A stretch of DNA of 64,000 bases. Source: Candidatus Roizmanbacteria bacterium RIFCSPLOWO2_02_FULL_40_13 (lineage in GTDB: Bacteria; Patescibacteriota; Microgenomatia; UBA1406; GWC2-37-13). Positions within the stretch are counted from its first letter, which is position 1; every line of letters begins with the position of its first letter. The notes under the pieces are model-generated. The model was given only the letters and a program-made list of their open reading frames with translations. It made no database searches and was not told where the DNA came from. The position numbers and the translations under genes are program-made. The DNA is taken from the NCBI GenBank assembly GCA_001789965.1, contig MGBA01000009.1, forward strand, positions 6,224 to 70,223, given 5' to 3'. Shown piece after piece: positions 1 to 9,433 of the stretch.

Positions 1-1089
1 TTCTATTTCTAACTTCAGCCTCGTTGTTAAGAGTTTCTCGTTTATTTTTATGGCATCAATTTGCGCTATCAACTGCCGTATAAGATCTTCTTCTGTTATA
101 TATGGTTCCTCACACTCGTAATCAACTGCACGTGCACAGTGATAGTAGATATGTTTAGTAGCTCCTCCATACTTGAGCTTTTTGTACCTCTCTTCAGCAG
201 TTACACCTCCACCGCATGATCCACATTTACAGAGCACTTTAAAGGGAAATATCTTCTGATGCCAGGCACGTGGTGGAACGGTAAGTTGAGTTTGTACCTT
301 ATCAAAGAGTTCTTTTGAAATTAACGCTTCATGATTTCCTTTATAGAGCTTTCCATGATATCCAAAGTGTCCATAGTAGAAGGGGTTATTTAGAGTTGCG
401 TATATTCTTGATAACGCCATTGATTTACTATTTTTAGTGGTAAAACCTATCTCGTCCAGCCATCTTTTAATAACTCGTCCTGATTGTCCCTTCTCACCAG
501 CTCTTACAAACATCTGTTTTATAATCAAGGCCCTATCGCGGTCCACATCAATTCCACTTATTCTATTGTTAGTTAAGATGTTCTTGTAGCCAATTGGCGC
601 AACTCCCGGCCTCCATCCCATTTCACACTTTGCTCTCAGGCCTCTTTTCACATTAATACCTCTGTTATCATTCTCGAGCTTGGCTTGAGAACATAAGATC
701 ATAAGTAAAAACTTCTCGTTGGGATTGTTACTAAAGGATTGGGAATAGGTTTTGATTTGATGAAGTTTCTCTTGGTCCATAAGGTCAACAAGTTTTCCTA
801 AATCTCCTGCATTTCTGCTTAATCGGTCAGGTGCCCATGTAAGTAGCCCTGAAAATTCTCCTTGCTCAATGTCAATGAGGAGTTGATTGAAGACCGGTCT
901 TGCCCCTGATGCTTTTGCTGAATGGCTTTCCTCTCGTATTTCTTTTATAAATAGACCTTCACGGCTTGCCAAAGTCTGCATTTCTTTAATTTGAGAGTCG
1001 ATGCTCATTGCTTGACGTTCATCGCTCTCTGAAGACTTTCTCGCATACAGGCAGTATTGTGTTTTCTTATTTTTTTCTTCCTTTACCAT
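1..1089 (-). CDS. Serine recombinase (resolvase/invertase family) with zinc ribbon, C-terminus cut by window edge
   Basis: 363 codons are open from an ATG at 1089 to the window edge without a stop. The N-terminal resolvase domain has the motif YARKSS, with S19 the likely nucleophile and R17 the paired Arg, and later TWAPDRLSRN, which matches the conserved DRLxR catalytic helix. A 'recombinase' domain follows (GVAPIGYKN, then ALSRIYATLNNPFYYGHF), then a zinc beta-ribbon (CKCGSCGGG about 287-295, YHC and YEC about 318-326) and the start of a coiled coil. This order is that of large serine recombinases that integrate or excise mobile DNA through a phosphoserine intermediate. Members are usually 450-550 residues, so roughly 100 or more residues lie outside the window. 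It is the only mobility gene seen, beside two DGR-like target genes, and could be their integrase. Confidence 0.9.
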   Translation of the reverse strand, partial: MVKEEKNKKTQYCLYARKSSESDERQAMSIDSQIKEMQTLASREGLFIKEIREESHSAKASGARPVFNQLLIDIEQGEFSGLLTWAPDRLSRNAGDLGKLVDLMDQEKLHQIKTYSQSFSNNPNEKFLLMILCSQAKLENDNRGINVKRGLRAKCEMGWRPGVAPIGYKNILTNNRISGIDVDRDRALIIKQMFVRAGEKGQSGRVIKRWLDEIGFTTKNSKSMALSRIYATLNNPFYYGHFGYHGKLYKGNHEALISKELFDKVQTQLTVPPRAWHQKIFPFKVLCKCGSCGGGVTAEERYKKLKYGGATKHIYYHCARAVDYECEEPYITEEDLIRQLIAQIDAIKINEKLLTTRLKLEIE

Positions 1090-1250
1090 ACAAGACACAA
1101 GGTACCCGAATGATTAAGTGAATCAAGTGCAGAATGCTATAAGGATAGCTGCGGTAATTTTCCTATTTAAGGTGCAGATGCGTCCGAAGAACCAAGTATC
1201 TAAAAGACAAGTTACTACAAGAACAAAGACCCCAAGAATTCAAGTATCTC
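1090..1250. other. Intergenic gap, no gene recognised
   Basis: These 161 bases separate the recombinase start from the stop of the first lectin-like gene. I looked here for a DGR template repeat resembling the 3' ends of the two neighbouring genes and found none. The last ~50 bases resemble the sequence just downstream of the second paralog (2155-2204) loosely. No clear sigma-70 promoter for the recombinase was found. Confidence 0.5.
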
Positions 1251-1285
1251 TTAGGAAGGGAAGACTATCAGAGGACGAAACCCGA
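1251..1285 (-). repeat. 35-nt 3' end identical to 2205-2239, candidate DGR initiation (IMH-like) segment
   Basis: The last codons, stop and adjoining bases of copy A are identical to those of copy B over 35 nt, including every synonymous site, directly 3' of the variable codons. In known DGRs the invariant 3' end of the variable region, shared with the template repeat, directs homing. The assignment is by analogy. Confidence 0.6.
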
Positions 1286-2108
1286 GGCTGTCACTCCGAA
1301 GGCCAGGTTGATCCCAACCGACGTGCGCAAGACCACCATCGCCAGAGCGGCCCCCGATCAAACGGCTGCCAGACTCGAACTTATCCTCAAACCATTCCCA
1401 CGTTGTAGTCTCGCCCCATTCTTTATGATGCATATTACCCAGTACGTTAAACTCTATAGCCTTAGGCAGGCGCACTTGATCATCTCGTATACCAAGATCG
1501 TGGGCCAATTCAGGAAGAACAGTTTTGTCTAGTTCATTCCACGAAGTAGAAAAACGAGAAGTAGGTGTTGGAGAACCTTTTATTTTTTCTTCGTCTCTCA
1601 CGCGAGCCATTAATGGTGCCAGTGAATCTGACTCATAACTCTGTCTTCCATTATCATATTGTGGTTTTGGTGTTTTATCTATGAGCACCCAGTTTCCATC
1701 TAGAGAAGTAGCGCTATCATCTACTTTTCCTTCTGTTACTTGTTCCCAGAACCAATCGTTTGGTTTTGTAGTCCAGCCGGGCGCGTCAATGGGTTTTACT
1801 GGGATTTTGCCCCCTTTACCTCCTCTGAATCCAAGCTTCATAGCTGGTAAATAATGGGCTTCTAGGGTGGTGATCCCTTTTTCTTGTGCTCTTTGTTGTG
1901 TCTCAAGAAGTTCTTGTGGGACTGGGGGCACATCAACATCTTTACCCAAGAATGTACGCCATGCTTCTGTCTCAGACTTTACCAGATCACCTGTTGGTTC
2001 TTGAAATTCTTTTTTAGGAGTTATAAGGCGGGCTTTACCTGAACTAAAGAGTCCTTTTACTTCATCAGGAGAATATCGTAAAACGTCAGGTGAAGTTTGT
2101 TCTGTCAT
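1251..2108 (-). CDS. FGE/C-type-lectin-like protein, candidate DGR target (copy A)
   Basis: A 285-residue protein of unknown specific function. Residues about 215-225 contain VRLPKAIEFNVLGN, like the RLPTEAEWE motif of formylglycine-generating-enzyme/sulfatase-modifying folds. The tail runs WEWFEDKF, RLIGG, GGLAHV, then a closing SLGFRPLIVFPS, like the RGGSW...GFR ending of FGE/C-type-lectin modules. DGR target proteins commonly use this fold and carry their variable residues there. Compared with copy B at 2205, the first ~240 residues show ordinary divergence. Residues 245-275 differ almost only at codon positions 1 and 2, and the last 10 codons plus stop are identical in DNA. No signal peptide or membrane segment is evident. 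A promoter (TTGGTA, 17 nt, TATACT) precedes it. The fold call is from motifs, the DGR role from the codon pattern; no reverse transcriptase lies in the window. Confidence 0.8.
   Translation of the reverse strand: MTEQTSPDVLRYSPDEVKGLFSSGKARLITPKKEFQEPTGDLVKSETEAWRTFLGKDVDVPPVPQELLETQQRAQEKGITTLEAHYLPAMKLGFRGGKGGKIPVKPIDAPGWTTKPNDWFWEQVTEGKVDDSATSLDGNWVLIDKTPKPQYDNGRQSYESDSLAPLMARVRDEEKIKGSPTPTSRFSTSWNELDKTVLPELAHDLGIRDDQVRLPKAIEFNVLGNMHHKEWGETTTWEWFEDKFESGSRLIGGRSGDGGLAHVGWDQPGLRSDSLGFRPLIVFPS
1284..1376 (-). other. Candidate DGR variable region of copy A
   Basis: Codons 245-275 of copy A aligned with copy B show 15 base differences: 6 at codon position 1, 7 at position 2 and only 2 at position 3. 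In 12 of the 15, one copy carries A on the coding strand (for example GGC/GAC, CGC/AGC, AGT/TAT, CTC/ATC). Upstream codons (GGC/GGT, ACT/ACC, GAG/GAA) show normal third-position drift instead. Differences confined to non-synonymous sites that could derive from template adenines are the mark of adenine-specific mutagenic retrohoming. Boundaries are approximate. Confidence 0.65.
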
Positions 2109-2123
2109 AGGAATTTATAAGCA

Positions 2124-2152
2124 AGTATAGCAAAATCCGACCAAAATACCAA
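2124..2152 (-). promoter_or_regulatory. Promoter of lectin-like gene A
   Basis: On the minus strand TTGGTA (2147-2152) is separated by 17 nt from TATACT (2124-2129), 15 nt before the ATG at 2108. The spacing and boxes fit a sigma-70 promoter. Confidence 0.55.
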
Positions 2153-2204
2153 AAACCAAGAATATAATACCAAGAGCAAAACTACTAAGAGATCAAGGAT
2201 CTAT

Positions 2205-2239
2205 TTAGGAAGGGAAGACTATCAGAGGACGAAACCCGA
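2205..2239 (-). repeat. 35-nt 3' end identical to 1251-1285
   Basis: Second copy of the invariant segment at the 3' end of the lectin-like genes, 954 bp from the first. It includes the shared stop codon TAA and all synonymous positions of the last ten codons. Confidence 0.6.
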
Positions 2240-2330
2240 TGCTGCCATACCGAGTGCCAGGCTGATCCCAATCGACGTCAGCAAGACCACCATCGTCAGA
2301 GCTGCCCCCGATCAAACGGCGGTCAGACCC
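2238..2330 (-). other. Candidate DGR variable region of copy B
   Basis: Counterpart of 1284-1376. Amino-acid pairs A/B include G/D, S/R, R/S, H/D, G/D, L/T, S/Y, D/G and L/I, interspersed with invariant codons such as TGG GAT and GGT GGT CTT. Inferred template codons at several sites would be AAC or AAT, the usual DGR hot codons. No template copy was found in the window. Confidence 0.6.
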
Positions 2331-2973
2331 GAACTTATCTTCAAACCATTCGTAAGTACTGGTTTGACCCCATTCCTTATGATAGAGATTTCCCAAGATG
2401 TTAAATTCTATTTCCTTAGGAAGTCTTACCTTGTCTTTAGGAATATTAAGTCTTTCAGCAATTTTAGGTAAAACGTCTCCATGTAGCTCGTCCCAAGAAA
2501 GAGAGAAGCGGGATTCATCGGGAAGGTTACTCTTAAAGGGATCTTCTGGATATAGTTGTTTCCCATCATCATAGTCTGGCTTTTGAGTATTATCTATAAT
2601 AACCCAGTGACCACTAAGAGAAGGAGCATCTGCGTCAATCTTGCCACTTGTTATATTCTCCCAATACCAATCCTCGGGTTTTACATTCCAACCTGGATGA
2701 GTATCATCTTTGGCAAAAGCCATTGATGGTAAGTAATGGGCTTCAAGTGTGGTGATTCCTTCTACCTTTGCCCGCTCAAGGACGGTAAAAAGATCTGCTG
2801 GTGGCTCGGGAATATCAATGCGTCTCCCTAGAAACGACTCCCATGTGCTTGATTCTGTTTTAAGAATGTCGCTGTCAATTTCTTTGGGCTCTCTTATTAA
2901 TACGTCCGCTTTATCTTCTGAGATAAATATGGCTTTTCCGCTTTCTGCGTCTTTTCCTGCATATCTGTAAGGT

Positions 2974-3258
2974 TTGCCTTCAATTTCTCTCTACAATGCG
3001 ATGTTTTTCTTCGGATTTACGATCGTCGAATCTAATGCTACAAGCCTCATCCCTTGGCTAATATTATCTCTGTCTTCACTTTACATCTTCGCATCTCATG
3101 GAATTGTAGATTACGGAAAAGGAGTGGCGATACTTATTGGTATGGCATGTGGAGGCTATTTTGGCGCACATGTGGCGATTGAAAGGGGAGATTTATGGGT
3201 TAAGCGTTTCTTCAGTGTAGTTGTGACAATCTCTGCAATTAAATTACTGTTTTTTTAA
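2974..3258 (+). pseudogene. C-terminal fragment of a TauE/SafE (TSUP) family membrane permease
   Basis: The frame starts at a TTG right after an in-frame TAA (2968) and encodes about 94 residues. They match the end of TSUP permeases: a helix with the family's ATS-type motif (VESNATSLIPWL), then a short loop HGIVDYGKG, a glycine-rich helix ILIGMACGGYFGAHVA and a final helix VVVTISAIKLLFF. TSUP transporters of organic sulfur anions are usually about 250 residues in two repeats, so the first repeat and part of the second are missing. The break coincides with the loss of the start of the lectin-like gene on the opposite strand, so this is the stump of a gene cut by a recombination event. It is unlikely to be functional. 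Confidence 0.7.
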
Positions 3259-7293: not shown

Positions 7294-9393
7294 TTATTTC
7301 CTACTTTCAGCCATTGATTTTACTACATTTTGCGGCACTTCTTCGTAGTGAGAAGGTTCCATGTAGGGGATTCCACGACCCTCGGTAAGGGAGCGAAGTA
7401 TCGTAACATAGCCGGAAAGCTCAGCAAGCGGCACGTAGGCTTTAATTACAGTACTGTTTCCTCGTTTTTCCGTACCTAAGATCTTTCCCCGTTTACTTGA
7501 GATATCACCAATCGTAACTCCCATGTATTCTTCGGGAACCGTAACCTCAAGTTTCATGATCGGCTCAATTAACGTAAGACCTGCTTTTTTAACAGCGTCC
7601 TGCAGAGCCATAGAGCCTGCTATTTTAAATGCAATATCAGAAGAATCAACATCATGATAGCTTCCGTCATATAGAGTAGCTTCAAGATCAACCAACGGAT
7701 ATCCCAGAAGAACACCTTTTTCCATGGCTTCAATGATTCCCTTCTCAACAGAGGGAATGAATTCACCGGGGATGTTTCCTCCCTTAATTTTATTCACAAA
7801 TTTAAAGCCCTCACCCCGTCCCAGCGGTTGGACCCTGATGAGACAGTGTCCGTATTGACCCCGTCCACCGGTCTGCTTGATGTATTTGGCTTCTGCGTCA
7901 GCCTCTTTTGAGATGGTTTCTTTGTACGCAACTTGTGGTTTTCCGACATTTGCATGCATGCCCATTTCACGCTTCATTCGATCGACTAAAATCTCAAGAT
8001 GAAGCTCTCCCATACCTGACATGATGGTCTGGCCGGTTTCATGATTGATCTTTACCTTAAATGTAGGGTCTTCCTCAGAAAGACGCTGAAGTGCGTAAGC
8101 AAGTTTTTCTTGGTCTGCTTTCGTTTTTGGCTCTATGGCAAGGGAAATAACAGGTTCTGGAAAGCTTATTTTTTCAAGGAGAATTGGGTGAAGTTGATCG
8201 GCAAGGGTGTCTCCTGTTTTAGTGTCCTTCGGACCGACCAATACTACAATCTCTCCTGCATATGCTGTGTCTATCTCTTCACGCTGATTTGCGTGCATGA
8301 GTAAAATACGGCTGACCCGCTCCTGTTTTCCTTGGTTTACATTATAGACGTATGATCCGGACTTTAGCGTTCCTGAATAGATTCTTGTGTAGGTAATCTT
8401 TCCTACATGGGGATCGAGCTGGATCTTAAAGGACAGGGCTGAAAATCTCTCATCTGGAGAAAGCTTTCGTACTTCAGGCTTATCTGTTTTGGGATCTAGT
8501 CCCTGAATCTCCTTAAGGTCAAGTGGAGAGGGAAGATAATCAACAATTGCATCAAGCACGGGTTGGACTCCTTTATTACGAAGAGAAGTTCCGCAATATA
8601 CCGGAATCAGCTTGTATGCGATAACAGCTGCCCGCAATGCTTTTTTCAATTCGTCAACACTGATCTCCTTATTGTGAAGATATTTGTCAAGAAGGATGTC
8701 ATCGGTTTCCGCAATTTTTTCAAGAAGTGCGCCCCGCGCAACTTCAGCAGGTTTTTTGAGATTCTCTGGAATATCACCTATAGAATATTCGGTTCCTTCC
8801 GGATCCTTGTCCCAGACCATCGCTTTCATGTTTAAAAGATCGATGATTCCGGTAAAATCCTGTTCTTTTCCGATCGGAATGACCATAATTGCAGGATTGG
8901 CTGCAAGTCTGTCTTCAATCTCTTTGACCGTGCCTTCAAAGTTTGCTCCTAGTTTATCCATTTTATTAATAAAACAGATTCGAGGAACTTTATATTTGTC
9001 TGCCTGACGCCAGACTGTTTCGGATTGCGACTGCACCCCTTCTTCAGCGTCGAAAACTATAACTCCACCGTCAAGTACGCGAAGTGATCGTTCAACTTCA
9101 GCAGTAAAGTCTACGTGGCCTGGAGTGTCAATAATATTTATGCGCATATCTTTCCAGAACGTGGTTGTTGCTGCAGAAACTATGGTGATTCCGCGTTCAC
9201 GTTCTTGGGGCATCCAGTCCATCTGCGTAGTACCCTCATCAATATCTCCGATTTTGTAGGATCGGCCTGTGTAAAAAAGAATTCGTTCTGTTGTTGTGGT
9301 TTTGCCGGAATCGATATGAGCAATGATCCCGACGTTGCGGATTTTGTCTAAAGGAACATTCCTGTTTTTAGTTACTATATTTCTGTCTGCCAT
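7294..9393 (-). CDS. fusA: Elongation factor G
   Basis: 699 residues, the usual EF-G length. P-loop AHIDSGKTT (25-33), [11 protein letters not shown] and RGITI of switch I, DTPGHVDF of switch II, and NKMDKLGA of the G4 motif are all present. Domain IV has GGRGQYGH and the C-terminus ends with domain V. It drives translocation of tRNA and mRNA on the ribosome using GTP and acts with RRF in recycling. It sits 40 nt downstream of rpsG in the classical str order S12-S7-EF-G, here fused behind rpoBC. Confidence 0.98.
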
Positions 9394-9433
9394 AATATTA
9401 TCAAAAAATAAAAGCGAGTTTGATCTTTATCAA

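Follow-up and report, generated by a model that had tools for sequence, protein, structure and literature searches.

Two tandem genes of a Roizmanbacteria genome as probable DGR targets, with a CTTG array behind each

Introduction

Two neighbouring genes, here called A and B, in the genome of Candidatus Roizmanbacteria bacterium RIFCSPLOWO2_02_FULL_40_13 raise the question of whether a diversity-generating retroelement (DGR) has rewritten both of their 3' ends and, if so, where the reverse transcriptase (RT) and the template repeat (TR) that served them would be found. DGRs are already known in CPR bacteria. An earlier note, made from the sequence alone, had described A and B as FGE/lectin-like targets of a single template acting in trans, with neither RT nor template in the window.

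In this study, the window is the whole stretch of DNA that was analysed: 64,000 nt, corresponding to bases 6224-70223 of contig C9 (MGBA01000009.1, assembly GCA_001789965.1). The assembly of the source genome (G000) comprises 925 kb in 25 contigs with an estimated completeness of 94.3%, and its relatives place it in Microgenomates. Homologues of A were found by searching 144 related genomes. Two genomes recur below: G079, Ca. Roizmanbacteria RIFCSPHIGHO2_02_FULL_43_11 (same order; cassette on MFZT01000034, stretch L014), and G084, Microgenomates bacterium Gr01-1014_7 (same class; cassette on VMGD01000010, stretch L013). L078 is a stretch of G084 contig C25, and L135 a stretch of source contig C11.

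Sequence and layout of the two genes

The two genes and their surroundings are laid out as follows (window positions):

1251-2108, minus strand: probable target gene A, 285 aa, ORF intact from ATG to stop
1251-1379, minus strand: variable region (VR) of A, with differing sites at 1286-1375 and an invariant 35-nt tail at 1251-1285; limits by homology with the TR/VR pairs of relatives
2124-2152, minus strand: promoter-like site for A in the B-A spacer, TTGGTA-17-TATACT with extended -10; a consensus match only
2205-2990, minus strand: B, probably a former target gene of 261 open codons, its 5' end missing and with it the start codon
2205-2333, minus strand: VR of B, by alignment with the VR of A
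2964-3001, no strand: apparent breakpoint, where B lacks its start and TauE its first two thirds; limits placed where both homologies end
2974-3258, plus strand: TauE/SafE C-terminal fragment (Pfam TauE positions 156-237 of 237), outside the DGR and marking the breakpoint

A and B are paralogues in tandem, with 51% identity (tblastn). Their codons 245-275 hold 15 differences, of which 6 lie at codon position 1, 7 at position 2 and 2 at position 3; the earlier note's count of 13 at positions 1 or 2, and of 12 with A in one copy, was exact on recount. The last 35 nt, stop included, are identical (window 1285-1251 against 2239-2205), as had been claimed, and the chance of this at the mismatch rate of the body is P about 1e-6. 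The body upstream does drift at all codon positions: 40 of 123 sites differ in codons 203-243, 23 of them at position 3, and the shift in codon position between VR and body is significant (Fisher p = 0.005). The share of differences with A in one copy was uninformative as evidence alone and was set aside: it is no different from that of the body (27/40, p = 0.51) because the DNA is A-rich. In the A/B alignment, the second base alone varies in GGC/GAC and GGT/GAT codons and the first alone in AGC/CGC, as expected if only the template A is rewritten.

The reading frame in the VR of A is intact. B is immediately preceded by an in-frame TAG at 2991-2993 and has no ATG, GTG or TTG before 2723; its homology to A begins about 10 codons into the open frame. 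Since B lacks a start codon and lies beside this TAG and a truncated TauE, it is probably not translated from a start codon of its own. The gene may be decaying after losing its start at a rearrangement breakpoint. The TauE fragment had no relative among 46 genomes.

Comparison with template-bearing relatives

Homologues of A and B lie beside a TR with adenine-restricted differences in 8 class-mate genomes, and an RT adjoins in 6 of them. Two homologues of A have a further short match, some 450 bp downstream, which is the TR; in both G079 (L014) and G084 (L013) the target is followed by the TR, then by an Avd gene of opposite strand and finally by the RT. Across the 8 homologous loci, 140 of 149 substitutions between TR and VR fall on a template adenine; in 7 TR/VR pairs, adenines were mutated at 124 of 205 sites (60%), against 8 of 632 non-adenines (1.3%). 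The differences between A and B follow the same columns: 12 of the 15 lie where most of 5 foreign templates have adenine, which is the case for 27 of 105 columns (p = 2.5e-6). Judged by foreign templates, most VR changes thus fall on template adenines, and both genes are homologous to targets that possess TR and RT.

A parsimony template built from A and B contains 23 adenines, 15 of which differ between the copies (65%, against 70% expected for two independent copies); as A is assumed at every variable site, this is a consistency check and not a test. The single template put forward earlier is consistent with this figure, although the template itself was not found. At the second bases of codons 248, 254 and 274, both A and B have G where all 5 foreign templates have A, which means that their template differs or that part of the history of the two VRs is shared. 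Because the tails and the other non-variable sites are identical while the bodies differ by a third, the rewriting would be recent relative to the divergence of the genes.

The 8 homologous TR/VR loci, the foreign-template adenines and the CTTG arrays after both stops (see below) indicate that A and B are very probably DGR target genes of the Microgenomates/CPR type, B formerly so, and the earlier proposal to this effect is upheld. The pair is of a known kind. Since searches for an RT and a matching template found neither, it is not classed as a complete DGR.

Several other features were observed in the cassettes of relatives. bAvd lies opposite in strand to RT and TR, with its 3' end beside the TR, in L013 (9402-9782), L014 (8042-8335), L059-L062 and L065. 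Between the divergent Avd and RT genes, where the RT begins (MCVCVCV...), lies a (TG)n run (L013, about 9402-9431; L014, about 7945-7970), which could allow phase variation of the RT. A conserved motif, ATAAAATACA, precedes the TR by about 50-85 nt in L059, L060, L062, L071 and L075-L079, and is possibly a leader of the template RNA; it is absent from the window.

A CTTG array after the targets

Both genes are followed by short repeats on their own strand:

1193-1244, minus strand: CTTG array of A, 5 copies with spacings 8, 15, 10 and 15, beginning 6 nt past the stop
2122-2197, minus strand: array following B, with three CTTG units at 2157-2197 and a further one at 2122-2125, a weaker array than A's

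The local p of the array is 0.0006 for A and 0.006 for B. Like A and B, TR-bearing homologues have 4-6 CTTG copies directly past the stop, where about 0.5-0.9 per 100 nt are expected; homologues without a TR nearby have 0-1 copies, with the exceptions of G218 (7) and G375 (4). In 17 TR/VR pairs, YTTGR occurred 66 times in the 110 nt after the VR against 13.9 expected, and 10 times after the TR against 10.3 expected. When 418 kb were scanned, 11 of 13 arrays of at least 4 copies lay at target ends (the array of A being counted twice, through the overlap of the window and L001). Units tend to stand 7-8, 14-17 or 23-24 apart, which corresponds to a period of 7.5 bp (p = 0.0008). These arrays are related by descent, which limits their independence. 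Stretches with arrays past target stops are the window, L013, L014 and L059-L067.

At some loci, a GC-rich hairpin follows the array; A and B have none, and no stable hairpin of the kind that serves as acceptor in BPP-1 was found in the 100 nt after either gene. The two strongest arrays elsewhere in the source genome, on C5 and C15, lie near ordinary genes without a VR, so that the array alone is not specific genome-wide. We propose tentatively, at a little short of an even chance, that in this DGR lineage CTTG (YTTGR) units about 7.5 bp apart act as an acceptor mark that replaces the BPP-1 hairpin and lets the DGR machinery tell acceptor from donor, which would make A and B competent in trans. 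No description of such an array was found in the literature searched, which did not extend to the main CPR study (Paul et al. 2017).

Fold and possible role of protein A

Neither A nor B received a name from Pfam or PHROGs. A domain model of A (residues 78-285), built on 15 relatives, reached a pLDDT of 88.6. The matches listed for it were mostly FGE, EgtB, SenA, TvpA and Mtd, with CarF also among them, and had probabilities up to 1.00; the best E was 1.6e-3, so that none reached E 1e-3. A whole-protein model of lower confidence gave no fold match. The domain of A is thus predicted to have an FGE-type C-type-lectin fold, as used by known DGR variable proteins. The description of the genes as FGE/lectin-like holds for the fold, since the model matches TvpA, Mtd and FGE; it does not extend to the FGE-sulfatase family profile PF03781, which did not match A or B.

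The protein would likely bind a changing partner. A has no further recognised domain, and CPR targets usually lack one (PMC8144416). In L064 (4577-6517), L065 (9554-12151) and L067 (2763-5372), related targets carry fused AAA_5/MoxR-type ATPase domains. Protein A alone found no relative when searched against the genome and viral contigs, although the whole-genome search did find relatives; viral contigs (searched with patterns), phages (with VR DNA) and plasmids (with protein) gave no match.

The RT, Avd and template

The absence of RT and template, noted earlier for the window, holds across the assembly for RT and for an A/B template. No RT was found in the 925 kb, itself an incomplete assembly, with PF00078 or with a DGR-RT protein and profile, and blastn of both VRs across the assembly returned only each other; the genome-wide search that had been suggested, by profile, tblastn and blastn, thus yielded neither DGR RT nor matching template. 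Searching the assembly with tblastn and the Avd of 2 relatives found none, nor did a Pfam bAvd search that was run without a positive control, and a local search of the assembly found no target besides A and B. The RT profile used finds a DGR RT in 55 of 373 class genomes. Among 16 target-bearing genomes, 7 lack an RT, the source genome included, which indicates that orphan targets are common.

A different template was found at the start of contig C11. The first 150 bases of the contig give SSNGNRVYVGNFDQKGVNVNNWHPDNSNPNIGVCPSR, immediately preceded by an in-frame stop; the relevant features are:

C11:29-139: different DGR template, whose translation shares 68% identity with those of the G084 C25 and G405 C5 TRs
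L135 (C11), 1-150: TR region
L135 (C11), 274-1542: recombinase
L135 (C11), 1734-1821: tRNA-Ser(TGA)

No array lies downstream of this template, and it does not match A or B, which therefore need a template of their own, still unseen; one unseen RT could serve both templates. In G084 C25 (L078), two paralogous targets around a MoxR-like ATPase come first, followed by RT (minus), Avd (plus), TR (plus) and recombinase (plus). The two targets, of 260 and 276 aa (L078 1381-5196), offer a precedent for paired paralogues beside one RT/TR, and by analogy that TR may serve both. Since RT and Avd sit just upstream of such a TR there, the DGR core of the source genome is probably unassembled and not lost. 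In G027, G151, G226, G346 and G405, an RT of this clade sits right at a contig edge, which shows that assemblies often break at this point. A contig end thus cuts at least one DGR of the source genome at exactly the place expected for RT and Avd. The C11 template tilts the question, by our estimate modestly, from a lost core to an unassembled one, and we consider it rather likely that the core is present but unassembled. The 1.1-Mb genome of G084 carries six DGR RTs, on contigs C5, C16, C25 and C26.

The recombinase and its surroundings

A serine recombinase gene lies beside A (window 1-1098, minus strand). Its 3' part precedes the window, across an assembly gap of 46 N inside the gene (C9:6178-6223, also L001 6178-6223) just before the window start, and a tRNA-Ser(CGA) lies beyond it at C9:5789-5876. 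The recombinases of C9 and C11 are 73% identical and have in common a 32-nt segment upstream of the gene. A recombinase also lies beside a DGR in G079 and in G084 C25; the family is present in 231 of 373 class genomes, mostly with no DGR nearby.

At the end of C9 (C9:78034-80058; L002 8035-10059) are a ParB-methyltransferase, a small terminase and the start of a large terminase. A ParB-methyltransferase/terminase module also precedes recombinase and DGR in G079, where the methyltransferase is 74% identical. By analogy with G079, this module may be what would adjoin the DGR, a tentative link because the rest of the terminase was not found in the assembly.

Discussion

In the explanation that we favour, a DGR RT would copy a template RNA of about 120 nt into cDNA with random bases at template adenines, and this cDNA would take the place of the target's 3' end. 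In this way the loops of a C-type-lectin/FGE-type binding domain would change, while frame and fold were kept. A and B would both have been rewritten from one template or two near-identical ones. RT, Avd and the A/B template would most likely lie in unassembled DNA, the other template being cut at the C11 start beside the sister recombinase. What we infer in this scheme is the single template, the location of the core, activity at present and binding as the protein's role.

It is possible, but doubtful, that A and B are fossils, diversified by a DGR whose core has since been lost, the pattern being a remnant and B by now a pseudogene. The assembly contains neither RT nor A/B template, and at 94.3% completeness absence would more likely mean loss than a gap, provided that missing loci are a random sample; B, next to a truncated TauE, is without a start codon, homologous targets without RT occur in other genomes, and RT-less VR fragments are known in nanoarchaea (PMC4372165). 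The state of A argues otherwise, since its VR frame is intact and its 35-nt tail and other non-variable sites are identical to those of B although the bodies differ by a third, as does the presence in this genome of another DGR's template, truncated where contig C11 starts. An origin without any retroelement, in which gene conversion homogenised the 3' ends and diversifying selection then acted on the binding loops, would also predict an identical tail and an excess of changes at positions 1 and 2, and the non-A states shared at several template-adenine columns could reflect conversion. We consider it very improbable, because physical templates of homologues show adenine-only changes in exactly these codons, the A/B sites coincide with foreign template adenines and a target-type CTTG array follows both genes.

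A further proposal, compatible with rewriting by an unassembled DGR, is that A and B belong to a mobile element with the serine recombinase at tRNA-Ser, and that a sister element at the tRNA-Ser(TGA) of C11 supplies the core. The order VR or TR, recombinase, tRNA-Ser is common to C9 and C11, the two recombinases and the 32-nt segment before them are alike, and a recombinase adjoins the DGR in G079 and G084 C25. This proposal seems unlikely: the recombinase family mostly occurs without a nearby DGR, the C11 template does not match A or B, and no attachment-site duplication was established.

Among known systems, the Microgenomates cassettes on VMGD01000010 and MFZT01000034 are most directly comparable with A and B, with a homologous target family, the VR in the same codons and a CTTG array past the stop; that of G079 also has a recombinase of the same family nearby. 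In these cassettes, the 2 kb or so after the target hold TR, Avd and RT, whereas A and B have none of them there, stand in tandem and include one gene without a start. The cassettes are probably members of DGR clade 2 of Roux et al. 2021 (PMC8144416). Mtd of BPP-1 (1yu2), a CLec-fold protein (Foldseek probability 0.97), likewise has a 3'-terminal VR, with a cis element after it. In BPP-1 this element has to be a GC-rich hairpin/cruciform (PMC3240598); A and B have a CTTG array and no hairpin. The second-best structural match to A was Treponema denticola TvpA (2y3c; probability 1.00), a DGR variable protein with an FGE-type CLec fold, although sequence identity is only 12%. TvpA belongs to a different DGR lineage. 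In DUSEL4 nanoarchaea, VR-bearing sites without RT were interpreted as fossils or remotely served targets (PMC4372165). These orphan fragments resemble A and B in having VRs without RT, but they are archaeal, have unrelated targets and carry hairpins with GRA loops (PMC4372165).

In sum, this study adds a probable tandem DGR target pair in a reduced-genome CPR bacterium. Since contigs break at the DGR core, surveys centred on the RT miss such targets, and their limitation for remote targets has been stated (PMC8144416). As a simple sequence tag, the CTTG array may separate acceptor from donor and help to find orphan targets without an RT, and it makes target recognition outside the BPP-1 system testable.
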